DNA from: a virus
Length of the DNA: 22,308 nucleotides
Reading direction: 5' to 3' (one strand)
Virus record (IMG/VR): IMGVR_UViG_3300009008_002650
Coordinates: 1 to 22,308 of that record
Shown here one piece after another: positions 1,468 through 21,631 of this stretch. Under the pieces are notes generated by a model that searched no databases, was not told where the DNA came from, and saw only the letters and a program-made list of their open reading frames with translations. Each line of letters begins with the position of its first letter. Positions within the stretch are counted from its first letter, which is position 1. A program made the position numbers and the translations under genes.

Positions 1468-2658
1468 ATGTCTCTCTTTATTCACAAAAAATCTATTGGA
1501 ACCAGCAGAAATCTTTTTTTGGATGATGGCGAGGTTTGCTGGACTCCCACTGAGGTTGATGCAACATTTACATACGGCTGTCTCACAAGACCTAATTCCA
1601 TTGAGCCGCTACTTAGTCTTTTTGGACTGACTCTTCCAGATTTGATACCACCTCGATTTGTCGAGGCCATGCGAATTTGTGGGATGACATCTGGCATACC
1701 GTGGGGAGACGTACTTCCAAAGAATCAATTTATGGAGAGGTTTAAGCACTTCATGAACAAGCTAGCAGAGGCACAAGCCGTACTTCATAGTAATGAATAT
1801 TCTCATTTTTTTATTAAGACAAATGAAATTTTAGGCAAACTGTCTCCATGTGAAATTGACAGTAAGTTCGCAGCTCAAGAATTGCAGATATCAGATTCAG
1901 CTGCATTGAGAAGTTTTTTGAAATCCAGCCGGAGTGTTCCGCTCTATTGCAGGGCTTCTACGAAAACTGGCCGATTGACAATCAAGGATGGCCCACAAAT
2001 TCTGACCCTTAAGAAAGAATATCGTAAAGTATTAAAAAGCACATTCTCAAGTGGGTCGCTTTATGAAATCGATTTTACATCTCTAGAGCCAAGAGTCGCT
2101 TTTAATATTACAGCTGGTGAGAAACTGCTTCCTGGAGAGAAGAGCCCCGCTGATTTGTACCAATTCTTTATAGAAAAATCCAATATTCAAATTCAGAGAG
2201 ACACAGCGAAGCTCGCAGTATTATGCTCACTTTACGGTGCGGGAACTTCTAAGTTGAGGTCAGTTTTGCAGAAAGATGGGAGTACATTTTCCGCTGATAT
2301 GCTAATCAAGAGGGTAGAGTCGTTTTTCGGCTTAAAAGAGATATTCAGGATGTTGAATGACCAAGCGCAATCAGGATATATCACTAATTTTTATGGCCGA
2401 CCCATTGAGGTCACGGATGCTCGCCGCAATGTGCTTGTGAATAATTTCCTGCAATCATCCGCGGTCGACGTTGCATTGGCAGGGTTTTGCCAGATCGCTG
2501 AAAATATTCCTTCATGCAAGCCGGTATTTATTATTCATGATGCTCTAATTATGGATGTGCCGAAAGGACAAGAAGACGCTTTGGAGAACATCGTTGCTCA
2601 AGGATTTTCTGATGAGAAGATGGGACACTTTCCTCTCAAGCTCACGAGGCTAAAATGA
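1468..2658 (+). CDS. DNA polymerase, family A, polymerase domain only
   Basis: Template-directed DNA synthesis. The 396-residue protein carries the family A motifs in order: RASTKTGRL (162-170, equivalent to the TGRLSS motif), motif A DFTSLEPR (202-209, catalytic Asp202), motif B R244-x3-K248-x7-YG (256-257) in the fingers, NFYGRPI (307-313), and motif C IHDAL (356-360, catalytic Asp358). It is far shorter than Pol I (over 900 residues): no 5' nuclease domain, and the ~150 residues before the TGRL motif are too few and lack DEDD motifs for a 3'-5' exonuclease. Both activities are encoded as separate genes nearby (6555 and 3227). ATG 1468 is the first usual start after an in-frame TGA at 1444; no clear Shine-Dalgarno sequence precedes it. 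The stop overlaps the next start (ATGA at 2655). The family call is firm; whether it is the main replicase is not, since a Pol III alpha gene begins at 21675. Confidence 0.88.
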   Translation: MSLFIHKKSIGTSRNLFLDDGEVCWTPTEVDATFTYGCLTRPNSIEPLLSLFGLTLPDLIPPRFVEAMRICGMTSGIPWGDVLPKNQFMERFKHFMNKLAEAQAVLHSNEYSHFFIKTNEILGKLSPCEIDSKFAAQELQISDSAALRSFLKSSRSVPLYCRASTKTGRLTIKDGPQILTLKKEYRKVLKSTFSSGSLYEIDFTSLEPRVAFNITAGEKLLPGEKSPADLYQFFIEKSNIQIQRDTAKLAVLCSLYGAGTSKLRSVLQKDGSTFSADMLIKRVESFFGLKEIFRMLNDQAQSGYITNFYGRPIEVTDARRNVLVNNFLQSSAVDVALAGFCQIAENIPSCKPVFIIHDALIMDVPKGQEDALENIVAQGFSDEKMGHFPLKLTRLK

Positions 2659-3173
2659 ACGAAGAAAAATTACGAAAATATATCCGGCGAATGCTTACAG
2701 AAGAGGCTGAGGAGCCACAACCTCCTACACGACCAAAACGTAGAGGTGTTAAAACGAAACCAGGATCAATAACTGCGTCTATCGGTCGGGGGAACACCAG
2801 CACCGGCGTAAAAGAAGCAGGTGCATTAGCAAAAGACAACCCCAAGCAATTAATGAAAAATCTCAAGATTTCATCTGGAGGCCCAGGCGATTTAAAGGGT
2901 ATTGGGTATATTCTTAAACAAGCGTTTAAGGGGGCTGAAGCAATGCAACAAGCATACTCTGGTCATAGTACTGTGAGTAAAGGTGATAAAAAAGGTATTA
3001 AGGTTTCTATGTCTAAGCTTGATCCTCGAAATGGTGTGAAATATCTTCAACATACTCTTTTTGCTGCGAAAGAAGCTGGGATGTTCAAGTTAAAAGATGC
3101 GCTACAAATAGACGTCGATGGTAAAGATATCGTCATTTATTTTTCTGAACATAAGGGTAGCTGGAACAAATAA
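2655..3173 (+). CDS. Small basic protein with conserved-looking N-terminal helix, possible internal head protein
   Basis: A 172-residue protein I do not recognise. It starts with a charged amphipathic helix (EEKLRKYIRRMLTEEAEE, about residues 3-20), then a Pro/Arg/Lys-rich, Gly/Ser-rich low-complexity stretch (about 21-80), then a more globular C-terminal half ending in a short beta-like segment (IDVDGKDIVIYFSEH). The N-terminal helix resembles the one on the protein at 4081 and carries a Leu-x-Glu/Glu site of the kind cut by T4-type prohead proteases. I infer, without proof, that it may be packaged into the head and trimmed there. Its start is coupled to the polymerase stop through an ATGA overlap. 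It could equally be an early DNA-binding protein, given the basic region and replication neighbours. Confidence 0.7.
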   Translation: MNEEKLRKYIRRMLTEEAEEPQPPTRPKRRGVKTKPGSITASIGRGNTSTGVKEAGALAKDNPKQLMKNLKISSGGPGDLKGIGYILKQAFKGAEAMQQAYSGHSTVSKGDKKGIKVSMSKLDPRNGVKYLQHTLFAAKEAGMFKLKDALQIDVDGKDIVIYFSEHKGSWNK

Positions 3174-3177
3174 AGCC

Positions 3178-3205
3178 TTGTACATCCCACCAGGAATGTT
3201 AAAAT
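3178..3205 (+). promoter_or_regulatory. Possible sigma-70-type promoter before the exonuclease gene
   Basis: TTGTAC (3178-3183) and TAAAAT (3200-3205) are separated by 16 bases, in the 53-base gap between the stop at 3173 and the ATG at 3227. A Shine-Dalgarno AGGAG (3217-3221) lies between the -10 box and the ATG. The boxes are imperfect, so this is a candidate only. Confidence 0.4.
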
Positions 3206-3226
3206 ATATCTTGGTAGGAGAAATGT

Positions 3227-4066
3227 ATGAAGCATTTAGAAAATAAGGACGGTCTTGTAGTTCTCACTAAGTTCTCTGGACTGTCGGCCCCTGATCGAGA
3301 GCCCATTTCTGGAGATGTTCCAGCAGTTGTGCTGGATGTGGAAACAACCGGCCTTCGAGCAGACAAAGACGAAGTTATTCAAATCGCTATACGCCCGTTT
3401 TTTGTGAGCCCCTCGACCGGTGAAATTTCTGGTATTAAGAAAACGATCGAGTTCAAGCAGCAACCGACATACCCTCTCTCGCCTGAAATTCAAGACATTA
3501 CAGGCTTCTCTGATGAAGACTTGAAGGGTCATGAGATTAATTGGGCTCGAGTTGCAAAGATTTTAAATTCATGTCAATTTATAATTGCTCACAATGCAAG
3601 CTTTGATAGGGAATGGGTAGACACGAACCTTAAAAGGAACGGCCATTCGCCTCCCCCTGATGCCATCTGGTGTTGCTCAATGTCTCAAGTTATGTGGAAG
3701 GACATTTGCCGCCCATCAAAGGCTCTAGAGGTCCTCTGCGCCTGGCATGGTTTTTTCTATAATTCCCATAACGCTATTGCTGACATTGATGCGACTCTCC
3801 ACCTTCTGAGGATGAGTGATAAGATGGAAGAACTGCTTCAGACGGCAGTAAAATCTGATTATCATGTTTTTGCTGTTGGGTCTCAAAGGGATGAGAATCC
3901 GCTTTTGAAATCTCGTCGTTATCGCTGGAATCCCGAGCTAACATGTTGGTGGAAATCTACGCCGAATCAAAATGCGGCGGAAGATGAGTGCGAATGGCTA
4001 GCACAGAACTTAAGAAAAGTAGAGCCGCAATTTTTTGAAGTAGAGCCGCAGAATCGTTTTTCTTGA
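3227..4066 (+). CDS. DnaQ-like DEDDh 3'-5' exonuclease
   Basis: Proofreading-type 3'-5' exonuclease acting on DNA ends. All DEDDh motifs are visible: Exo I LDVETTGL (Asp37, Glu39), Exo II AHNASFDREW (Asp127), Exo III HNAIADIDA (His181, Asp186). The fold covers about residues 33-195. After it comes a ~60-residue tail with SRRYRWNPELTCWWKS (229-244), a Trp-rich module that I recall from other phage DnaQ-like proteins, and a short repeated KVEPQ/EVEPQ end. ATG 3227 follows AGGAG with 5 bases between. As the family A polymerase at 1468 lacks an exonuclease domain, this protein is a natural proofreading partner for it or for the Pol III alpha at 21675; that pairing is inference. An RNA-degrading role (RNase T-like) is less likely in this context. 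Confidence 0.88.
   Translation: MKHLENKDGLVVLTKFSGLSAPDREPISGDVPAVVLDVETTGLRADKDEVIQIAIRPFFVSPSTGEISGIKKTIEFKQQPTYPLSPEIQDITGFSDEDLKGHEINWARVAKILNSCQFIIAHNASFDREWVDTNLKRNGHSPPPDAIWCCSMSQVMWKDICRPSKALEVLCAWHGFFYNSHNAIADIDATLHLLRMSDKMEELLQTAVKSDYHVFAVGSQRDENPLLKSRRYRWNPELTCWWKSTPNQNAAEDECEWLAQNLRKVEPQFFEVEPQNRFS
4017..4050 (+). repeat. 21-bp spaced direct repeat in the exonuclease tail
   Basis: AAGTAGAGCCGCA occurs at 4017-4029 and again at 4038-4050, exactly 21 bases apart, so it repeats a 7-residue unit in frame (KVEPQFF then EVEPQNR). It looks like a small tandem duplication near the 3' end of the exonuclease gene. Confidence 0.8.
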
Positions 4067-4080
4067 GATAATTAAAATAG

Positions 4081-4350
4081 ATGAGTATCGATCACGAAAA
4101 AAAGCTTAGAGAGTTTATTAGGTTTCTTGTTGAGGAAGCCGAAGTTCTTGGCGAACCCGATTTTATACCGGGTCGTGATGAGGATGATGATGAGGGTCAT
4201 CATGATGAAGCTTCGACGGGCGGTGTCCCGGGTCCGATGCTTCCATTGGGTATGGGTTCCCCATCTGCTCGCCGAAAAAGACGGAAAGATGCCACGACCG
4301 CAAATGCGTCTGGTTTCGGCGGCGCAAAGGCCCATAAAAAAAGAAAATAA
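4081..4350 (+). CDS. Small charged protein with the same N-terminal helix type, possible internal head protein
   Basis: An 89-residue protein with no recognised family. Residues 5-20 (HEKKLREFIRFLVEEA) form an amphipathic helix like that of the protein at 2655, with a Leu-Val-Glu/Glu site. The middle is very acidic (DEDDDEGHHDE, about 33-43), followed by a Pro/Gly-rich linker and a strongly basic end (ARRKRRK about 63-69 and HKKRK at the C-terminus). This split of acid and basic blocks around a flexible centre suggests an unfolded nucleic-acid-binding or scaffolding protein rather than an enzyme. It sits 14 bases after the exonuclease stop; no strong Shine-Dalgarno sequence is seen before ATG 4081. 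Overlapping frames on both strands are open because of the biased composition, but this frame has the motif shared with another gene. Confidence 0.6.
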   Translation: MSIDHEKKLREFIRFLVEEAEVLGEPDFIPGRDEDDDEGHHDEASTGGVPGPMLPLGMGSPSARRKRRKDATTANASGFGGAKAHKKRK

Positions 4351-7516: not shown

Positions 7517-8920
7517 ATGGCATCCACTATTGCATTATTAGATTCGGTTCCATCCGGCCAATTTTCACAGTATAACAAAAATTTTCAAGAAAAGATTTTG
7601 CAGGGCTTGTTATCTGACAAAACTTGGGCAATGCAGATGGTAGAAGTTATGCGCTCAGATTTTTTTGAACTTCGATATCTTGAATATCTTTGTGAAAAAT
7701 ACTTTACGTACTTTGCTGAGTACCGCTGCTTCCCAACACAGGTTTTGCTCATTAGTATTATTAAGGATGCCCTAAGCGAAGACGGTGATATTTTGCTCAG
7801 AGATCAAATAGTATCATATTTGATAAGAATGAAAGAAAACCCGAGCCCAAATGATCTGGCGTACGTTAAGGCTAAGGCGCTAGATTTTTGTAAAAGACAG
7901 GCCTTTAAAGAAGCCCTTGAAGAATCAGTTAATTTGATCACCACCGGTGAATTTGAGCATGTTATTACTCTAATGAAGAACGCTGTTTCGATTGGGATGC
8001 CCAATACTGCTGGTCACGATTTTTTTGAAGATATGGAAGCGAGATTTTTGAAAATCCAGCGTTGCGTTTGCCCAACAGGCTTAGCAGAATTGGATTCGAG
8101 AGAAATTTTAAATGGTGGCCTGGGACGAGGTGAAATTGGCGTCGTTGTTGCCAACACTGGTGTCGGAAAATCTCATTGGCTTGTGGCAATGGGAGCGAAC
8201 GCAATGAGGAATGGAAAAAATGTTCTTCACTACACTTTTGAGTTGACAGAGCAGGCTGTTGGATTGAGATATGATGCCAATCTGTGTAATATATCAGCGT
8301 CTGATGTAATTGACCATAAGAAGACTGTTCAAGACTACTATGGGAAAAATGAAGGATTTGGCCGATTGATGATCAAAGAGTATCCAACAGGTTCCGCATC
8401 TGTGGTGTCTATTAGGAACCATATCGAGAAATTAGCTTTTCGTAATTTCAAGCCAAGCGTCATAATCGTAGATTACGCAGATATTATGCGCTCCACCAAG
8501 TCATATGACTCTTTACGACACGAATTAAAGCTAATTTATGAGGAGCTAAGAAATTTGGCCATGGAGCTTAATATTCCTATATGGACTGCATCACAAGCAA
8601 ATAGGGATTCTGCAAATTCTGATATTGTTGGGCTTGAGAACATGTCAGAAGCATATGGGAAAGCCATGGTTGCAGATTTTGTAGTGTCGATTTCCAGAAA
8701 GGCAACCGAAAAAGCCACCGGTGCCGGCCGGCTATTTATTGCAAAAAATCGTGCAGGGAAGGACGGGATCGTTTTTCCTATTCACATTGACACAGCTACA
8801 TCTAAGATTAGCGTATTGGACGAAGATGTTTCTACACTTTCAGAAACAATCGAAAATGATGAGAAAGAAATGAAGTCTGCGCTTAGAAAAAAATGGAAGT
8901 CAATTTCAGGTATCGCTTAG
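7517..8920 (+). CDS. Replicative DNA helicase, DnaB/gp41-like
   Basis: Hexameric 5'-3' helicase that unwinds the replication fork. The C-terminal RecA-like domain (about 185-430) has Walker A VANTGVGKSHW (211-221), Walker B VIIVDYADIM (315-324), and the H4-type motif PIWTASQANRDS (354-365, Gln360). The N-terminal ~170 residues are helical, as in DnaB and T4 gp41, and hold no primase motifs. 467 residues is normal for the family. ATG 7517 follows AAGGA (7507-7511). The gene is 11 bases after the 5' nuclease, in the replication operon. No primase gene is visible in this window. The T4 gp41 relationship is suggested by the neighbouring gp32-like and UvsX-like genes. Confidence 0.9.
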   Translation: MASTIALLDSVPSGQFSQYNKNFQEKILQGLLSDKTWAMQMVEVMRSDFFELRYLEYLCEKYFTYFAEYRCFPTQVLLISIIKDALSEDGDILLRDQIVSYLIRMKENPSPNDLAYVKAKALDFCKRQAFKEALEESVNLITTGEFEHVITLMKNAVSIGMPNTAGHDFFEDMEARFLKIQRCVCPTGLAELDSREILNGGLGRGEIGVVVANTGVGKSHWLVAMGANAMRNGKNVLHYTFELTEQAVGLRYDANLCNISASDVIDHKKTVQDYYGKNEGFGRLMIKEYPTGSASVVSIRNHIEKLAFRNFKPSVIIVDYADIMRSTKSYDSLRHELKLIYEELRNLAMELNIPIWTASQANRDSANSDIVGLENMSEAYGKAMVADFVVSISRKATEKATGAGRLFIAKNRAGKDGIVFPIHIDTATSKISVLDEDVSTLSETIENDEKEMKSALRKKWKSISGIA

Positions 8921-8924
8921 GGAG
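8919..8924 (+). promoter_or_regulatory. Ribosome binding site fixing the ribonucleotide reductase start
   Basis: AGGGAG overlaps the helicase stop (TAG 8918-8920) and sits 7 bases before ATG 8932. It favours 8932 over the in-frame ATG at 8893, which lies inside the helicase gene and has no such site. Confidence 0.7.
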
Positions 8925-8931
8925 TTCCGGT

Positions 8932-11439
8932 ATGACATATGACTATAAAACGGCGGTCGAAAAATCGCTGGCTTATTTTGGTGGTGATGAGTTAGCTGCT
9001 AATGTCGTTGTAACGAAATATCTTTTGATGAATAAAGATGGTGAGTATCTTGAAGCCACACCTAACGATATGCACCGTCGTCTCGCAAAAGAATTTCACC
9101 GGATTGAAGCGAAATATGAGAACCCACTAACTGAAGAAGAAATATTTGATTTGTTGAAGGGATTTAAGAAGATAATCCCCCAAGGCTCTCCCATGGCTGG
9201 AATTGGTAACAATACCAAATTACAGTCTATCTCGAATTGTTTTGTCATTCCAGCGCCCGAAGACAGTTATGGGGGAATTCTTTCAACAGACCAAAGACTC
9301 GTTCAGATTGCCAAGCGCCGCGGCGGTGTTGGTTTTGATATAAGCACAATTCGACCAAAGGGCCTTTCTACTGCTAACGCTGCAAAGACTACCGACGGAA
9401 TTGAGGTCTTCATGGATCGCTTTTCTAATTCGTGTCGAGAGGTTGCGCAAGGTGGCCGCCGCGGCGCATTGATGCTTACGATATCTGTTCATCATCCTCA
9501 AATTCGTGACTTTATAAAAATCAAGAAAGACCTTAAAAGAGTGACAGGTGCGAATATTTCTATTCGTGTAACTGATGAGTTTATGGAAGCAGTTCAATCA
9601 AGCTCAAATGTACATTTACGTTGGCCTGTAGAGAGCAAAGAGTGCACGATATCAGAGTACGTTGACGCAAAAACGCTTTGGCATGAAATTATAGAGTCAG
9701 CTCATGCCACCGCTGAACCCGGATTGTTGTTTTGGGATACGGCAAAAAAGATGACTCCTTCTGATATTTACGCTAACGAAGGTTTTTCATCGTGCTCCAC
9801 AAACCCTTGCGGCGAGATTATTTTGTCTCCTCATGACAGCTGCAGATTGATGCTTGTGAACTTGACAAGCTTCGTAAAGAAAAAGTGGAAGTCTAATGCA
9901 AAATTTGACTTCGCTTCATTCGGCAAAGTGGTTCAAAAAGCTCAACGCTTAATGGACGACATGATCGATATTGAGATTGAGCAAGTTGAAAAGATTCTTA
10001 AGAAGATTGAGGCCGATCCAGAGTCTGGCGAGGTAAAGCAAATCGAGAAAGACTTGTGGACAAATATCCAGACGATGGCTGTTCTAGGGCGTAGAACTGG
10101 CCTTGGAATCACGGGACTTGGTGATACTTTAGCAATGCTGGGTGTACAATATGGTAGCAAAAAAAGCATCAAGCTCACTGAAGAAATATATCGAGCGCTA
10201 GCGGTTAATGCGTACTATTCATCTGCTGTCTTGGCAAAAGAACGCGGTGCGTTTCCTGCGCACGATCACGCCAAAGAGGATGGTCATCCATTTTTAGAGA
10301 GAATTTGGAAAGAAAATCCAGAAATTAAGGAAATGAATAAGGAATTTGGTCGCCGAAATATTTCAATAACTACGACGGCCCCAGCCGGATCAGTTTCTGT
10401 ACTGACACAAACAACTTCCGGTATCGAGCCAGCTTATATGCTACACTATACACGTCGTAAAAAAATTACAGGTCAAGACGAGGCTGCTAGTGTGGATTTT
10501 GTTGATGATAGTGGCGATAAGTGGCAAGAATATACAGTTTATCATCATGGATTTAGAGAGTGGATAGAACATTCGGCATTTCGCAGCGATGATGATCCTG
10601 AAGAGATGGTCGAACTGAGTCCGTATAAGTGTTCAACAGCCTCAGAAATTGATTGGGTTGCAAAAGTGAGAATGCAGGCAGCTGCTCAAAAATGGGTATG
10701 TCATGCAATCTCTAATACGACAAATCTTCCCGCAGATATAGACATTGAGACCGTTAAAGATGTTTATATGACTGGTTGGGAGCTAGGGTGCAAGGGTATC
10801 ACTGTATATCGTGATGGTTCACGAACTGGTGTTTTGGTCGCGAAAACAGAGGAAGAAGTTGACCCCCGGGAAAGTGAAAAGATCATCATAAAATCAGCTC
10901 CCAGAAGGCCTGAAATATTAGACTGTGATATTCACCAGGCAAACATTAAGGGTGAGGCCTGGACGTTACTAGTGGGGTTAATGGACGGTGTTCCCTACGA
11001 AATTATTGGTGGTCTTGCGGAATATGTGGAAATTCCACGACGCTATATCACTGGTCAAATTCGGCGTCGCCCTCGTAAGTCAATGCCTTCGAAATATGAT
11101 TTAATTTTTGGGCAGAATGGTGACGAGATGACCATCAAGGACATTGTTAAGGTTTTTGATAACCCCAACCATTCGGCATTTACAAGGACAATTTCGTTAG
11201 CATTACGCCATGGCGTCCCGACCCAGTATTTGGTGGAGCAATTATTAAAAGATAAAGATGCGGATTTATTTTGTTTTTCAAAAGTCATTGCACGGTGCTT
11301 GAAGAAATATATCGCAGATGGTACAAGGGCTAGCAATGGCGTACTTGAGTGTGATTGTGAAACACCAGAAGACTGTAATGTTGTTTATCAAGAGGGCTGT
11401 GCGACATGCTTGACATGCGGCATGGCGAAGTGCGGATAG
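8932..11439 (+). CDS. nrdJ: Class II (adenosylcobalamin-dependent) ribonucleoside reductase
   Basis: Converts ribonucleotides to deoxyribonucleotides with a B12-derived radical, so needs neither oxygen nor a second radical subunit. Family marks in order: first active-site cysteine SNCFV (Cys103), glycine-rich RRGGVGFDIS (129-138), NPCGEI (Asn291, thiyl-radical Cys293, Glu295), TGLGDTLAMLG, and the TTTAPAGSVS loop. From about residue 660 a TSCPD-type module follows (LLVGLMDGVPYEIIGG, then EIPRRYI), and the protein ends in a cysteine cluster (CATCLTCGMAKC, 823-834) that likely binds zinc or passes electrons. These features separate it from class I NrdA and class III NrdD. The 835 residues fit the long NrdJ form. 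No nrdB-like gene is seen. It starts the nucleotide/Fe-S/protease group and is 4 bases from iscU. Confidence 0.9.
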   Translation: MTYDYKTAVEKSLAYFGGDELAANVVVTKYLLMNKDGEYLEATPNDMHRRLAKEFHRIEAKYENPLTEEEIFDLLKGFKKIIPQGSPMAGIGNNTKLQSISNCFVIPAPEDSYGGILSTDQRLVQIAKRRGGVGFDISTIRPKGLSTANAAKTTDGIEVFMDRFSNSCREVAQGGRRGALMLTISVHHPQIRDFIKIKKDLKRVTGANISIRVTDEFMEAVQSSSNVHLRWPVESKECTISEYVDAKTLWHEIIESAHATAEPGLLFWDTAKKMTPSDIYANEGFSSCSTNPCGEIILSPHDSCRLMLVNLTSFVKKKWKSNAKFDFASFGKVVQKAQRLMDDMIDIEIEQVEKILKKIEADPESGEVKQIEKDLWTNIQTMAVLGRRTGLGITGLGDTLAMLGVQYGSKKSIKLTEEIYRALAVNAYYSSAVLAKERGAFPAHDHAKEDGHPFLERIWKENPEIKEMNKEFGRRNISITTTAPAGSVSVLTQTTSGIEPAYMLHYTRRKKITGQDEAASVDFVDDSGDKWQEYTVYHHGFREWIEHSAFRSDDDPEEMVELSPYKCSTASEIDWVAKVRMQAAAQKWVCHAISNTTNLPADIDIETVKDVYMTGWELGCKGITVYRDGSRTGVLVAKTEEEVDPRESEKIIIKSAPRRPEILDCDIHQANIKGEAWTLLVGLMDGVPYEIIGGLAEYVEIPRRYITGQIRRRPRKSMPSKYDLIFGQNGDEMTIKDIVKVFDNPNHSAFTRTISLALRHGVPTQYLVEQLLKDKDADLFCFSKVIARCLKKYIADGTRASNGVLECDCETPEDCNVVYQEGCATCLTCGMAKCG

Positions 11440-11443
11440 TGAT

Positions 11444-11839
11444 ATGAGTTATTCAGGTAAAGTTATAGACCATTTTGAGAACCCAAAAAATGTAGGAAGC
11501 TTCGATCAGGATGACCCTAGTGTTGGTACTGGGATTGTAGGCGCTCCAGCTTGCGGTGATGTAATGAAGCTTCAACTTAAAATTAGCGACACCGGCATTA
11601 TCGAGGATGCCAAATTTAAAACTTTTGGTTGCGGTTCTGCAATTGCATCCACCTCGTTAATAACTGTATGGGTCAAAGGAAAAACGCTGGAAGAAGCCTC
11701 AGAGATAAAAAATACTGATGTTGCAAAAGAGCTTTGTTTACCACCAGTAAAGATCCACTGCTCTGTGTTGGCAGAAGACGCGATTAAAGCTGCAATAGAA
11801 GACTATAGGAGAAGAAGTGCACTGGACATCAAAAATTGA
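11444..11839 (+). CDS. iscU: IscU-type iron-sulfur cluster scaffold protein
   Basis: Scaffold on which Fe-S clusters are built before transfer to apoproteins. The 131-residue protein matches bacterial IscU almost along its whole length as I remember it (YSGKVIDHFENPKNVGSF; VGAPACGDVMKLQ; FGCGSAIAS; KIHCSVLAEDAIKAAI). All three cluster cysteines (37, 63, 106), Asp39 and His105 are present. The LPPVK motif (99-103), known as the docking site for the HscA chaperone, is intact, so the protein should work with the host HscA/HscB and cysteine desulfurase; none of those partners is encoded here. The last 23 bases overlap the ClpP-like gene. No frameshift or missing residue is seen, arguing for an active copy taken from a proteobacterium. 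Confidence 0.95.
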   Translation: MSYSGKVIDHFENPKNVGSFDQDDPSVGTGIVGAPACGDVMKLQLKISDTGIIEDAKFKTFGCGSAIASTSLITVWVKGKTLEEASEIKNTDVAKELCLPPVKIHCSVLAEDAIKAAIEDYRRRSALDIKN

Positions 11840-14020: not shown

Positions 14021-15031
14021 ATGAAAGTAGCGCATATTGACTATATTTGGGTAGACGGGTTTGATATACCATCAATTAGGTCAAAGACGAAGGTAGGTCC
14101 CATCACAACTAACGATGAGGGCCAATCCGCGATAGAAATAACACAGTGGAATTTTGATGGCTCATCGACCGGCCAGGCTTCGACGAGCGAGTCTGAAAGA
14201 CTTCTAACACCTGTTCGTCTTTACCAGGTGTCACCAAGCCAGTACATGGTACTTTGTGAGGTGGAGGACGTTGATGGAACAGCACATTCTACAAACCATA
14301 GAGCTGTTCTGCGAGAGTATCTTACGGAAAATCCGACCAAAAATCTTTGGCTTGGTTTCGAACAAGAATATTTTTTAACTGATAATAGAAGTAAGAATAT
14401 GTTTTGGGCGGGTGAAGTAGAGCCGCCAAACACACCCATGTATTATTGTTCTTCTGGTGGGGACAGAGTGATGAAACGAGGCTTAGTAAGAGCCCACGCT
14501 GATATTTGCTGGTCAATGGGAATTCAGGTTGTTGGATATAACGCTGAAGTCGCTCCAAGTCAATGGGAATTTCAATGTTTCGGTGAAGACACGCTAAAGG
14601 CATGTGATGATTTATGGGTTTCAAGATATATGTTGTCACTTCTCGCCGAGAACGATGGCGTTGGTGTCGATTGGTCCCCCAAGCCACATACAGGATGGAA
14701 CGGCTCAGGTTGTCATACTAATTTTTCAACCGAGGAGATGCGGACAGGTACGGACAACGAGAAGTTGTATAATAGCATTTTAGAAAAGATGTCCATGAAC
14801 CATACCTCAACGATATCAGAATATGGCGAAGGGAATAATGATAGATTAGTGGGAGCGTATGAGACATCTAGTTTCGAGAAGTTTTCGTACGGCGTCGCCG
14901 ACCGTAGTGCTTCTGTTAGGATTCCCACATCGACAGTCGACAACGAGTGGAAAGGGTATTTAGAGGACCGACGACCTTCTTCAAATTGTGATCCGTACCG
15001 AGTCGCAAACCAATTAATAAGATTTGTGTGA
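14021..15031 (+). CDS. Glutamine synthetase, type II (eukaryotic-type)
   Basis: Makes glutamine from glutamate, ammonia and ATP. The 336-residue protein has the type II order of motifs: WVDG...RSKTK near the N-terminus, WNFDGSSTGQA (43-53), FEQEY metal site (Glu114, Glu116), YNAEVAPSQWEFQ (173-185, Glu176), WNGSGCHTNFS (226-236, His232), NDRLVGAYE, SASVRIP (Arg299) and YLEDRRPSSN (313-322, Glu315). Length and the short N-terminal part fit type II, not the ~470-residue bacterial type I, and there is no adenylylation-tyrosine loop. In bacteria type II enzymes are known from rhizobia and actinomycetes among others. Every catalytic residue I can check is present. ATG 14021 follows AGGAG at 5 bases. 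It heads a group with malate synthase (9-base gap), isocitrate lyase and ThyX. Confidence 0.93.
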   Translation: MKVAHIDYIWVDGFDIPSIRSKTKVGPITTNDEGQSAIEITQWNFDGSSTGQASTSESERLLTPVRLYQVSPSQYMVLCEVEDVDGTAHSTNHRAVLREYLTENPTKNLWLGFEQEYFLTDNRSKNMFWAGEVEPPNTPMYYCSSGGDRVMKRGLVRAHADICWSMGIQVVGYNAEVAPSQWEFQCFGEDTLKACDDLWVSRYMLSLLAENDGVGVDWSPKPHTGWNGSGCHTNFSTEEMRTGTDNEKLYNSILEKMSMNHTSTISEYGEGNNDRLVGAYETSSFEKFSYGVADRSASVRIPTSTVDNEWKGYLEDRRPSSNCDPYRVANQLIRFV

Positions 15032-15040
15032 GGGAATGCT

Positions 15041-16585
15041 GTGTCGTTAAAATTTACTGTTGATTTAACCGAAGAGCAGGCGTCTGTATTGTCTCTTGAT
15101 GTTATAACATTTTTAGACGCCTTATGTGAAGAGTTCAGTCTTACGATTGCTCATCTTCTGGATGAGCGTGGGGGATTTACACCTGGTTTTCTGGAAGAAA
15201 CGAAGTGGATACGAGAAAGCCAGTGGAAGATTGCGGATTTCTCAAAAGACCTCGAAGACAGACGTGTCGAAATTACTGGTCCTCCCGATCGAAAAATGAT
15301 AATCAACGCATTGAATTCCGGCGCGAATGTGTACATGGCAGACTTTGAGGACTCCAATTCTCCGACGTGGAGCAACTGTGTAAATGGCCAGATAAATTTG
15401 CGCGATGCGATTCATAACGAGATTGATTTTCATGATGAGAAAAGAGACAAAATGTACTCCCTCGGCTCCGAGCTAGCAGTGTTATTTGTTCGTCCCCGCG
15501 GACTTCATTTATCAGAGGGTCATGTGATTCATGATTTGTGGGATGCGCCAATTCCAGCAGCGCTCTTCGACTTTGGTGTTTACATTGCGAATAATATCAC
15601 CACCCTTGTGGAGACCGGCCGCAGTCCCTATTTTTATCTTCCCAAATTAGAGCACCACAATGAAGCTGCTCTTTGGAATAAGATTTTTTCATTTTCTGAA
15701 GAATATTTTGGCGTGAAGAATGGAGTTATTAAGGCAACTGTGTTGATTGAAACCCTTCCAGCGGCATTTCAAATGGACGAGATATTATACGAATTGCGAG
15801 AGCATTCAGTTGGGTTGAATTGCGGTCGGTGGGACTATATTTTTAGTTTCATAAAAACATTTCGAAATGACCCAAAGTATATTGTTCCTGATCGAGATGA
15901 AGTGGGTATGACGCAACATTTTATGCAGTCCTACTCGAGACTCTTAATACAAACATGTCACCGCCGGGGAGCGCATGCGATGGGCGGTATGGCTGCTCAG
16001 ATACCTATAAAGAACGACCCTGTAGCGAACTCAACCGCGATTAGAAAGGTAGAGCAAGACAAGATTCGGGAAGTAATGGATGGACATGACGGCACATGGG
16101 TAGCGCATCCAGGATTAGTGGCAATCGCAAAAAAAGTTTTCGATGAATATCTTATCACGCCCAACCAAATTAACAGACCTCTATCAAATATTGAGATATC
16201 AACTGAAGACTTGGTGGAAGTTCCTGTAGGATCTTTCACAGAGGAAATGTTAAGAAAAAATATAAAAATTGGATATGAATATATGAAGGCCTGGGTTGCG
16301 GGGTCTGGGTGCGTGCCTCTTAACAATTTAATGGAAGACGCCGCCACTGCTGAGATATCTCGTGCACAGACCTGGCAGTGGTTGCGGCATAACGTAATGC
16401 TTGATAACGGAGCTGTTGTGACGCAAGAGTATTTAGGCGCACTGTTTCAGGAAGAATTGATTGGTGAGTGCGGAGTAGCGTATGATCTATGGCACATATT
16501 GTGCTTTCAAAATAATATGGATGAGTTTTTAACACTACAAGCCTATAATAGCTTGGAATTAAATGGAAAATTGGAGATTCTCTGA
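15041..16585 (+). CDS. aceB: Malate synthase A
   Basis: Condenses glyoxylate with acetyl-CoA to malate, the second step of the glyoxylate shunt. Family marks run the full length: [20 protein letters not shown] (79-98), [18 protein letters not shown] (150-157, Arg153 for glyoxylate), [13 protein letters not shown] (236-248) with Mg ligand Glu237, [14 protein letters not shown] (260-273) with Mg ligand Asp265, [11 protein letters not shown], and [12 protein letters not shown] (430-441) with the catalytic base Asp433. 514 residues fits the A form (about 530), not the ~720-residue G form used by many marine bacteria. GTG 15041 follows GAGGG (15030-15034). The stop overlaps the isocitrate lyase start by one base, and the order aceB-aceA matches enteric aceBA. 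No aceK kinase is seen. No defect is seen, so it is probably active. Confidence 0.95.
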
Positions 16586-17823
16586 TGACAGCTAATAATC
16601 GATGGGACGGAATTACCCGCCCTTACTCCGCTGAGCAGGTAGATAAATTACGCGGCTCATTTCGTGAAAACTATGGTTTCGCAACACACGTTGCAACAAA
16701 GCTTTGGAACCAATTATGCTCTGAGCCCTACGTTCATGCAATGGGAGCTGTGACTGGAAATCAAGCGATGCAGATGGTCAAGGCCGGTACACCCTCGATT
16801 TATTGCTCTGGATGGCAAGTCGCCGCCGACGCGAATGATTCTCATTCCATGTACCCGGACCAAAGTTTATATGCGGTAAACAGTGTTCCAATGCTTATTG
16901 AAAAAATAAATAATGCTCTTCGTCGTGCCGACCAGGTCGAATGGATTGAAAATTGCGGGTCAATAAGAGACTGGTTCGCACCGATTGTTGCAGATGCAGA
17001 AGCAGGTTTCGGTGGAAACCTCAATGCGTTTGAATTGATGCAAGCAATGATTCGCGCCGGCGCAGCAGGGGTGCATTTTGAAGACCAGTTATCTTCGGCC
17101 AAGAAGTGTGGTCATTTAGGCGGAAAAGTTCTTGTACCGACCAGCGAGTTTGTTAAGAAATTGATAGCTGCTCGGCTAGCAGCGGATGTGATGGATGTAC
17201 CAACTATTTTAATTGCCCGTACCGATGCCGATTCAGCCCGTTTGATAACGTTAGATGTTGATCCTATAGACCAACAATTTATTACATCAAATGAACGAAC
17301 CGCAGAAGGATTTTATCATATCACTGGCGGGATAGATATGGCCATATCTCGAGGCTTGGCGTATGCGCCGTATGCCGACCTTCTTTGGTGCGAAACCAGC
17401 ACGCCTGATTTAGCAGAGGCGCAAAAATTCGCTGACGCTATACATGAAAAATTTCCCGGTAAGATGCTGGCGTATAATTGTTCACCTTCTTTTAACTGGC
17501 GCGCGAACCTCGATGATGAAACTATTGCAAAGTTTCAAAATTCTTTGGGGGAAATGGGTTACAAATTTCAGTTTATCACCTTGGCTGGTTTTCATTGCTT
17601 GAATTATTCAATGTTCAATTTAGCGCTGGATTACAATAAGCGAGATATGTCTGCATACGCCGAACTTCAAGCTGCTGAATTTGCCGCTGAAGATATTGGA
17701 TATACTGCTACAAAGCACCAACGTGAAGTAGGAACAGGATATTTCGACGCAGTTGCACAAACGATATCGTCAGATTCATCGACTTTAGCTTTAAAAGAGT
17801 CCACCGAAGCTGAGCAATTTTAG
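16585..17823 (+). CDS. aceA: Isocitrate lyase
   Basis: Splits isocitrate into succinate and glyoxylate, the first step of the glyoxylate shunt. Visible marks: [12 protein letters not shown] (74-85), [10 protein letters not shown] (135-144, Mg-binding acids), HFEDQ (164-168), the family signature KKCGHLGGK (173-181) with catalytic Cys175, LIARTDA (209-215), NCSPSFNW (298-305) and the C-terminal ST-x3-QF ending typical of the bacterial enzyme, which closes over the active site. 412 residues is slightly below the ~430 of E. coli, with no lost motif. ATG 16585 shares its A with the malate synthase stop (TGATG), and GGAG lies at 16572-16575, so the two enzymes should be made in step. The related methylisocitrate lyase is shorter and has a different signature, so I do not favour it. 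Confidence 0.95.
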
Positions 17824-18530
17824 TGAGTAGAATTGAATTATATGATGACAAGATAGGCGTTGTTGAATACGTTTCCCATATGGGAGAAGACATTACAGTT
17901 GTTAATAGCGCCAGGGTTTCTTTTGGGAAACATAAGGATGTAATGGATGACAAAGATAGAAAGCTTATTAAGTATCTTATCAAACATAAGCATACGTCAA
18001 CACTCGAACACTGTGTTATAACATATCGGTTCATAGTACCCCTTTTCGTTCGAAGCCAGCATCACCGTCATCGAACATGGAGCTATAACGAGATATCACG
18101 TCGTTATACTGACGAGAATCTCCGGTTTTATGAGCCAGCAAGTTTCAGAACGCAGCATAAATCCAATCGACAAGCTTCAAATATTAATGAGCTAAGGGAC
18201 CCTGTAGTGATACCAGACCTTTCGGATACGGATTATGGTATGACTGCATCTCAAGTTGTCAGTGATCATCACCGACGTTCTGTAATGTTATACAACGATC
18301 TTCTCAGGGTAGGTGTATGCCGCGAACAGGCTCGAGGTGTTCTCTCCCAAAACCTGTACACTGAGTATTACGGAACTGTCAATTTAAACAATCTTTTAAA
18401 GTTTGTTTCGCTTCGAACCCATGACGGTGCCCAATGGGAGATTCAACAAGTAGCAAAAGCTTGTTTAGAAATTGCTAAAAATTGCTGGCCAGAAACAATA
18501 GAAGCCTATCAAGAATTAACATCATCTTGA
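17823..18530 (+). CDS. thyX: Flavin-dependent thymidylate synthase
   Basis: Methylates dUMP to dTMP using methylene-tetrahydrofolate and FADH2. The ThyX motif RHRTWSYNEISRRY is at 82-95, followed by RFYEPASF (101-108); CREQARGVL (166-174) and LRTHDGAQWEIQ (197-208) are the other conserved dUMP/FAD-site segments. 235 residues is the normal length. GTG 17823 uses the last base of the isocitrate lyase stop (TAGTG), so it is translated with the metabolic genes before it. In the pathway it follows ribonucleotide reductase and the dUTPase-like enzyme at 19517. It is the last clear member of the 14021-18530 operon: a 66-base gap follows, with a weak 5-bp hairpin (GCTCT 18551-18555 with AGAGC 18563-18567) but no T-run. 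Confidence 0.95.
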   Translation: MSRIELYDDKIGVVEYVSHMGEDITVVNSARVSFGKHKDVMDDKDRKLIKYLIKHKHTSTLEHCVITYRFIVPLFVRSQHHRHRTWSYNEISRRYTDENLRFYEPASFRTQHKSNRQASNINELRDPVVIPDLSDTDYGMTASQVVSDHHRRSVMLYNDLLRVGVCREQARGVLSQNLYTEYYGTVNLNNLLKFVSLRTHDGAQWEIQQVAKACLEIAKNCWPETIEAYQELTSS

Positions 18531-20602: not shown

Positions 20603-20804
20603 TGTGGCGTGTATTACGGAGTACCACTTCGGTGTAGGCTCAGACGGAACATCTTACATTCTCACGCCAGGTGACGGCGGATTGATTGTCGAACGCTATC
20701 ATGAATTCGGGACAGTTATATTATTTATATTAGGTAACCTCATTGAGGTGGAAGAGCAAGCGCTAAGTCTACGTGAGTATAATAACCGGGAGATTATCAA
20801 ATGA
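20589..20804 (+). CDS. Small protein of unknown function, probable beta-barrel
   Basis: A 71-residue protein I do not recognise. It looks mostly beta: PGDVACITEYHFGVG, GTSYILTPGDGGLIVERY, GTVILFILGNLIEVEEQAL. The opening PGDVA resembles the first strand of SH3/KOW-like small barrels. The hydrophobic ILFILG piece is too short for a membrane span. ATG 20589 lies inside the end of the J-domain gene and the stop overlaps the metallopeptidase start (ATGA, 20801-20804), so the three are translated as a chain. Confidence 0.6.
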   Translation: MIPGDVACITEYHFGVGSDGTSYILTPGDGGLIVERYHEFGTVILFILGNLIEVEEQALSLREYNNREIIK

Positions 20805-21631
20805 CAAAGAAGATTAATCAAGATCGATTAAACGAAATTATAAAAGAAGAAGTTGTTAGTCATTTTTTGATGGAATCAAACTTACGAGTGGTGAGCACCT
20901 TAACGAACCGCGTTACGCGCGCGATTCTTTTCCTTGTAAAAGATGGTAAGACAACCACTGAGGAATATCAAGTCTTGGAAGCAGACGATTTAATCGATAC
21001 TGCCGGCCTACAAGATGAGACAGCTATCTACAGTCTTGATATAGATTTTCTCCCTGGAAAAATTAATCCAGACTTGGTCAGTGATGACTTCGGCGAAGAC
21101 GACACTTATTTAAGCGTTTCGTTATTTATTACTCCCTCTGATGCGATCCATATTTCTGGTGATAATATCAACCGTACGGGGAGCCCCGGAATTCATGTGG
21201 ATGTATTTGCTCCGAACCCGCTCCCTGATAAGAAGCGTGCTCTTCTTCGATCTGAGATTTCGAATACTGTCCGTCATGAGATTGAGCATATGCTTCAAGA
21301 GCTTCCAATGTATTATCGAGGGATGGAAGCTGCCGAGGGTGGAACATACGAATATGAAGACTTCGAAGTCATCGGTACGCCGGTGTCAGATCGCGCGAAA
21401 GATTACTATCTTGATGTAAAAGAGGTCTCTGCTCATATTATGGGATATGCGCATAATGCACAATCAACAAAGGCATTAGAAAGTGAAATACGTTCCATGC
21501 TTCAGAATTGGGCTAAGCAAGATTGGGAAAAAGATCGAGAGCGATATATCGCACCTGAAGATGTAGATATTATTGCAGGCGCCTGGATGGATTGGGCAAA
21601 AAAACACCTGAGAAAACAAAGATTTCGTTGA
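20801..21631 (+). CDS. Zincin metallopeptidase (HExxH) with N-terminal helix
   Basis: A 276-residue putative zinc protease. NTVRHEIEHMLQE (155-167) holds the HExxH site: His159, Glu160, His163. Downstream, YYLDVKEVSAH (202-212) has the Glu208-x2-Ala pattern that gives the third zinc ligand in gluzincin-type enzymes, so the active site looks complete. The N-terminal ~15 residues (QDRLNEIIKEEV) are a charged helix with an Ile-Lys-Glu/Glu site, partly like the helices at 2655 and 4081. Residues ~25-150 form an unassigned mixed domain and the C-terminus is helical, Trp- and Arg-rich. No signal peptide is seen. The substrate is unknown: head maturation, host protein cleavage or a packaged protease are all possible. 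It is coupled to the previous gene by ATGA. Confidence 0.75.
   Translation: MTKKINQDRLNEIIKEEVVSHFLMESNLRVVSTLTNRVTRAILFLVKDGKTTTEEYQVLEADDLIDTAGLQDETAIYSLDIDFLPGKINPDLVSDDFGEDDTYLSVSLFITPSDAIHISGDNINRTGSPGIHVDVFAPNPLPDKKRALLRSEISNTVRHEIEHMLQELPMYYRGMEAAEGGTYEYEDFEVIGTPVSDRAKDYYLDVKEVSAHIMGYAHNAQSTKALESEIRSMLQNWAKQDWEKDRERYIAPEDVDIIAGAWMDWAKKHLRKQRFR

Follow-up and report, generated by a model that had tools for sequence, protein, structure and literature searches.

Short N-terminal targeting propeptides are known from phage T4, where a capsid-targeting sequence (CTS) is found on IPI, IPII, IPIII and Alt (Mullaney and Black, 1996, described in PMC9026906). The T4 prohead protease gp21 is reported to cut after (L/I)xE, and in IPIII residues 4 and 7 are important in targeting, and residues 8 and 10 in processing (PMC9026906). 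In the phiKZ-like phage SPN3US, gp53 and gp54 carry N-terminal propeptides (MANFVKSKLARESVE; PMC5694885). Here we examine a stretch of 22,308 nucleotides, hereafter the window, corresponding to positions 1 to 22,308 of the IMG/VR virus record IMGVR_UViG_3300009008_002650, in which three genes, called 2655, 4081 and 20801 after their first positions, encode proteins with an amphipathic N-terminal helix that has (L/I)xE at its end. This helix, or tag, is very probably a capsid-targeting propeptide of the T4 type that the prohead protease of the phage itself removes and that is put to unusually wide use. A literature search found no paper giving the tag sequence; the related literature covers the T4, phiKZ-like and phage P1 cases.

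The tags share with the T4 CTS the layout of a short N-terminal propeptide common to unrelated proteins, in a phage that also encodes a gp21 protease, with hydrophobic residues where T4 has positions 4 and 7 and a site at the equivalents of residues 8 and 10 (I-x-E). Residues 4, 7, 8 and 10 of IPIII correspond to P7, P4, P3 and P1, a register identical to that of the tags. They differ from the T4 CTS in their sequence (MKITKRQLRRIIKEE or xLRxYIRxLLxE), in often having two predicted cut sites, in the arrangement of their cargo as tandem arrays and tag-cargo-tag-cargo fusions, and in number, with 8-28 tagged proteins in the better-covered contigs as compared with a handful in T4. The phiKZ-like head proteins resemble them in having identical short N-termini on diverged paralogs, several cut sites after Glu and a divergent gp21 homolog, but there the motif is A/S-x-E, the propeptides are mostly long and the cargo consists of paralogs, whereas the cargo here is unrelated.

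Window proteins and their N-terminal helices

The window matches bases 112,068-134,375 of G001, a 178,344-base phage contig from IMG/VR, at 99.996% identity, and the three genes lie on the plus strand. The tag of 2655 (MNEEKLRKYIRRMLTE, positions 2655..2702) has a predicted cut after E16 (LTE/E, the slash marking the cut) and is followed by EAE, the full N-terminus reading MNEEKLRKYIRRMLTEEAE. That of 4081 (MSIDHEKKLREFIRFLVE, 4081..4134) has its predicted cut after E18 (LVE/E) and is likewise followed by EAE (N-terminus MSIDHEKKLREFIRFLVEEAEVLGEPDF). In 20801 (N-terminus MTKKINQDRLNEIIKEEVVSHFLMES), the tag MTKKINQDRLNEIIKE (20801..20848), with a predicted cut after E16 (IKE/E), precedes EVVSHFLME/S, in which LME/S, at residue 25, is a second possible site. 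The original prediction, that 2655 and 4081 start with nearly identical helices on otherwise unrelated proteins and that all three proteins have (L/I)xE followed by Glu, thus holds, and outside the helices the three are mutually unrelated. Its description of the 20801 helix as a looser version does not: by profile score this helix lies nearer than the other two to the commonest tag form, MKITKRQLRRIIKEE. Against a profile built only from eight of the tagged proteins of a gene run at 167.6-177.4 kb of G001, 20801 scored above 99.86%, 2655 above 99.6% and 4081 above 97% of 1,431 internal 30-residue windows.

The linker and cargo domain of 2655 occupy 2703..3170, with a predicted globular part at about residues 50-164. 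An AlphaFold model from 24 sequences (mean pLDDT 80) has a helix at residues 3-15, a low-confidence linker and then a domain. Fold searches with this model against PDB and viral models yielded no credible relative, the top Foldseek matches being designed proteins with low TM-scores; sequence searches of PDB, using a profile for 2655 and the sequence of 20801, gave no credible relative either, and the Pfam and PHROG searches no family for 2655 or 4081. The 4081 cargo (4135..4347) is acidic then basic in the ortholog alignment, and near its start lies a conserved LGEPD motif (4144-4158) that holds a second L-x-E. The cargo of 20801 (20849..21628) is a putative zinc metallopeptidase with an HExxH motif, HEIEH, at 21275-21289; its Pfam Peptidase_Mx1 match is weak (E=0.026, 14.3 bits vs a cut-off of 25.6), and all its Pfam and PHROG matches are sub-threshold. 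On sequence grounds 20801 probably belongs to the tagged set. The suggestion that a protease is among the cargo is less secure: the HExxH motif and the good tag of 20801 speak for it, the lack of relatives and the sub-threshold match against it.

The helix and its site are retained among orthologs. Of 42 loci encoding relatives of 2655, 25 distinct ones were compared, and all have L or I at P3 and E at P1; P4 is hydrophobic in 25/25, P7 in 24/25 and P11 in 22/25, and at P5, P6, P9 and P10 most residues are polar or charged. Some of these orthologs have a quite different helix (MKVSIKDIVFDILLEE) and the same site. The pattern in 4081 orthologs is much like that of 2655, with [LI]xE kept in 18/18 distinct sequences and hydrophobic residues at P7 (89%) and P4 (83%). 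Tag length is 14-18 residues. In 5 of the 25 relatives, 4081 is fused behind 2655 in a single protein with one N-terminal tag and the second tag missing.

Tagged proteins and head genes in G001 and its relatives

A simple script called 171 genes on G001; some starts called by the script are wrong (e.g., G010 49022 and 285222, and G016 96303 on related contigs). A T4-like head cluster lies between 80 and 90 kb and comprises the gp20 portal (PF07230, 1.7e-74), the gp21 prohead protease at 83043-83660 between gp20 and gp23 (PF03420, 1.2e-24, 87.3 bits vs a cut-off of 27; phrog_207, 6.9e-48), the gp23 capsid protein (PF07068, 9.5e-77) and a presumed scaffold protein (86095-87765). The gp23 propeptide ends in ILRE, and in the capsid proteins of ~50 relatives a conserved propeptide ends in L-x-E, nearly always L-R-E or L-K-E, before a variable linker; this L-x-E is the expected maturation site. 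Since the closest named phages, Flavobacterium phage immuto, Microcystis phage Mel-JY01 and Rhodothermus RM378, are all distant, the group is essentially uncultured.

A genome-wide search for further N-termini of this kind, one of the checks proposed with the original prediction, returned many additional tagged proteins in the phage and its relatives. In G001, at least 12 proteins open with an amphipathic helix that has (L/I)xE at its end. Among them, the proteins encoded by the run at 167.6-177.4 kb start with MKITKRQLRRIIREE or close variants, and the products of conserved genes at 146-157 kb with different helices, also closed by (L/I)xE. Four related contigs (G003, G010, G015 and G016) have 8 to 28 tag-pattern matches each, mostly in tandem arrays, and in G010 a second tag form, LREYIRELLxE, the one that the window proteins have, stands on several different tandem proteins. 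The tag pattern is 21 to 48x commoner at N-termini than in protein interiors in four genomes and is absent from protein interiors in the fifth (p 1e-15 to 7e-29 over the five). The wide pattern h..hLxE is only 2-3-fold enriched at N-termini, and a bare L-x-E is therefore weak evidence by itself.

Five genomes yielded a set of 78 tags, of which three are clearly false matches (two MKVNGFDIDG proteins and a spurious open reading frame on the minus strand). Glu stands at position 14 in 70/78, in a set selected on residues 1-12 only, with no requirement for Glu; the flanking positions are less conserved than E14, and at residue 15 E, A or S predominate. Among 367 tags collected over every locus retrieved, some of them recruited with a pattern that included the Glu, conservation drops past residue 15; it returns at a second L-[LI]-x-E, which peaks at residue 22, and is lost again behind that site. 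A second (L/I)xE occurs within residues 16-35 in 45% of tags, as compared with 22% in later windows and 23% in shuffled sequences.

A degenerate DNA pattern for the tag recovered at least 120 stretches in viral contigs, and 8 stretches in 4 metagenome-assembled genomes (MAGs) from 257 Gb of genomes. The tagged relatives of G001 are uncultured and mostly marine. gp21 was present in 14/14 of the examined tag-bearing contigs at >=142 kb and in 16/17 at >=100 kb, counts in which some contigs may be mutually related; 14 contigs drawn by a neutral 14-mer had the tag in 0/14 and the protease in 4/14. The strict tag was found in 8/18 relatives chosen by gp21. In one of the MAGs, Methylococcaceae TMED69, a 305-kb contig binned as bacterial (NHDW01000006.1) encodes gp21, gp23 and no fewer than 20 tagged proteins, and is very probably a phage contig.

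The tag was not found in T4 or immuto. The latter (MW353176) is the nearest cultured relative by gp21 (47% identity) and like G001 has gp21 and gp23. In immuto (MW353176.1), four proteins (1803, 103762, 117587 and 118588) have an N-terminus of their own in common (FDLKKFLVENKLT; tag MENFDLKKFLVEN). This FDLKKFLVENKLTxNSxLLxE-like N-terminus has two L-x-E sites, as do many of the tags here, but its sequence is different and the cases are fewer; the design is therefore wider than one tag sequence. One of the four genes sits just upstream of a gene for a single-stranded DNA-binding protein.

The cargo is diverse. The 78 tagged N-termini fall into 52 unrelated cargo clusters, nearly all differing within a genome, and a Pfam match is lacking in ~76 of the 82 tagged proteins examined. 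Assigned families include superoxide dismutase, DUF192, SpoT-like HD hydrolase, zeta-like kinase and pterin dehydratase. The SpoT-like protein is tagged in G015, has another tag in G003 and G010, and is untagged in G001. Seven full internal tags were seen in the genomes scanned, and 6/7 of the proteins that contain them also begin with a tag, forming tag-cargo-tag-cargo polyproteins.

The propeptide reading and its rivals

The anatomy of the system is seen directly: a conserved tag, a site, many cargoes, a protease and a matching site in the capsid protein. Each sequence-level prediction of the capsid-targeting idea was borne out, with gp21, gp20 and gp23 present, L-[KR]-E in the capsid propeptides and unrelated proteins behind the tag. 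In the T4-type model that we favor, the tag would dock a protein onto the internal core, or scaffold, of the prohead. After assembly, a gp21-like prohead protease would cleave just past the (L/I)xE that closes the helix, and many proteins would be cleaved a second time at an (L/I)xE about eight residues further on. The tag would be lost, and the cargo would remain in the head beside the DNA; its injection would probably follow when the next cell is infected. The tag is a module that has been added to many unrelated proteins, enzymes included, in this uncultured T4-like group.

The helices are basic and amphipathic, and the tagged proteins include enzymes such as superoxide dismutase, as might be expected of ordinary N-terminal oligomerization or membrane-associating helices that act independently of the head and in which L-x-E is incidental. 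We regard this as improbable, since it leaves unexplained the near-invariant Glu and the stop in conservation directly after it, the matching site in the capsid propeptide, the second site, the loss of the second tag in fusions, and the occurrence of internal tags almost exclusively in proteins that start with a tag. The location of tagged genes in tandem arrays makes recombination at common 5' ends plausible, and the shared ends could in principle be a nucleic-acid element (a translation enhancer, a recombination site or a recent duplication) with the peptide as a by-product. However, tags of identical peptide sequence differ at a median of 5/42 bases, third codon positions vary most, and orthologs keep the peptide across large divergence; from the synonymous differences among tag codons it follows that the peptide is selected, and on this ground the explanation was rejected as highly improbable. 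More serious, though still unlikely, is the view that the tagged proteins are structural core proteins, like T4 gp67, gp68 and gp22, which are chopped during maturation and leave the head rather than being cargo. Small charged proteins encoded near gp21 and the presumed scaffold have similar N-termini (G001 genes at 84.2 and 84.7 kb), and 4081 is itself small, charged and of low complexity. Conserved core proteins would nevertheless be expected in all genomes, whereas most tagged proteins occur in a single genome or sporadically, and some are folded enzymes.

Several observations weigh against the T4-type propeptide as we picture it. Core docking, cutting, packaging and injection are all deduced from sequence, and L-x-E is a short motif. 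T4 MKTYQEFIAE and the tags agree in register and site and otherwise differ in their residues, over a length too short for a homology test. The strict tag is absent from 10 of the 18 gp21-selected contigs, several of which are fragments, and other tag types or fewer cargoes are therefore assumed there; in one MAG, tags and gp21 lie on separate contigs. Finally, 20801 has no ortholog in the viral contigs searched, and thus no ortholog support.

On balance, we lean toward the broader view that a large uncultured T4-like group has a general protein-loading system based on one family of removable tags, with at least 20 cargoes per phage in fast-changing tandem arrays and polyproteins, and that much of the "orphan" content of these genomes may be injected virion cargo. 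Small proteins without known function make up a large share of uncultured phage genomes, and a tag readable from sequence would predict which proteins ride in the virion and enter the host first. Such predictions would make roles of the cargo testable, in anti-defence, host take-over, and ppGpp or oxygen stress. The T4 internal-protein idea, which covers a handful of proteins, would be widened into one of modular delivery, and new tags would become available for loading proteins into phage heads.

Individual cargoes and neighboring genes

The G001 gene at 175,722-176,597 encodes an N-terminal tag and an internal tag-like sequence (NDLRRLIRDVLLE) ahead of a second cargo, which in G010 and G015 forms a tagged protein of its own. 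The phage superoxide dismutase (G001 146,670-147,377) is kept in five genomes, with (L/I)xE and then [AS]YV immediately ahead of the enzyme domain. The product of G001 168,984-170,213 has a weak tubulin/FtsZ match (Pfam Tubulin, 1.2e-4, below cut-off). Two proteins were considered as ADP-ribosyltransferases: the G001 gene product at 177.4 kb looked like one, had no library support and is not claimed as such, and the G016 protein at the position of 2655 appears to be a divergent 2655 relative.

Elsewhere in the window, ribonucleotide reductase, a NifU/IscU-like Fe-S scaffold and ThyX are encoded at 8893-11839 and 17823-18530, and a ClpP-like protease at 11817. Adjoining genes at 14021-17823 encode untagged glutamine synthetase, malate synthase and isocitrate lyase, enzymes that published papers mention in connection with marine viruses; the last two are both enzymes of the glyoxylate shunt, here in a phage.
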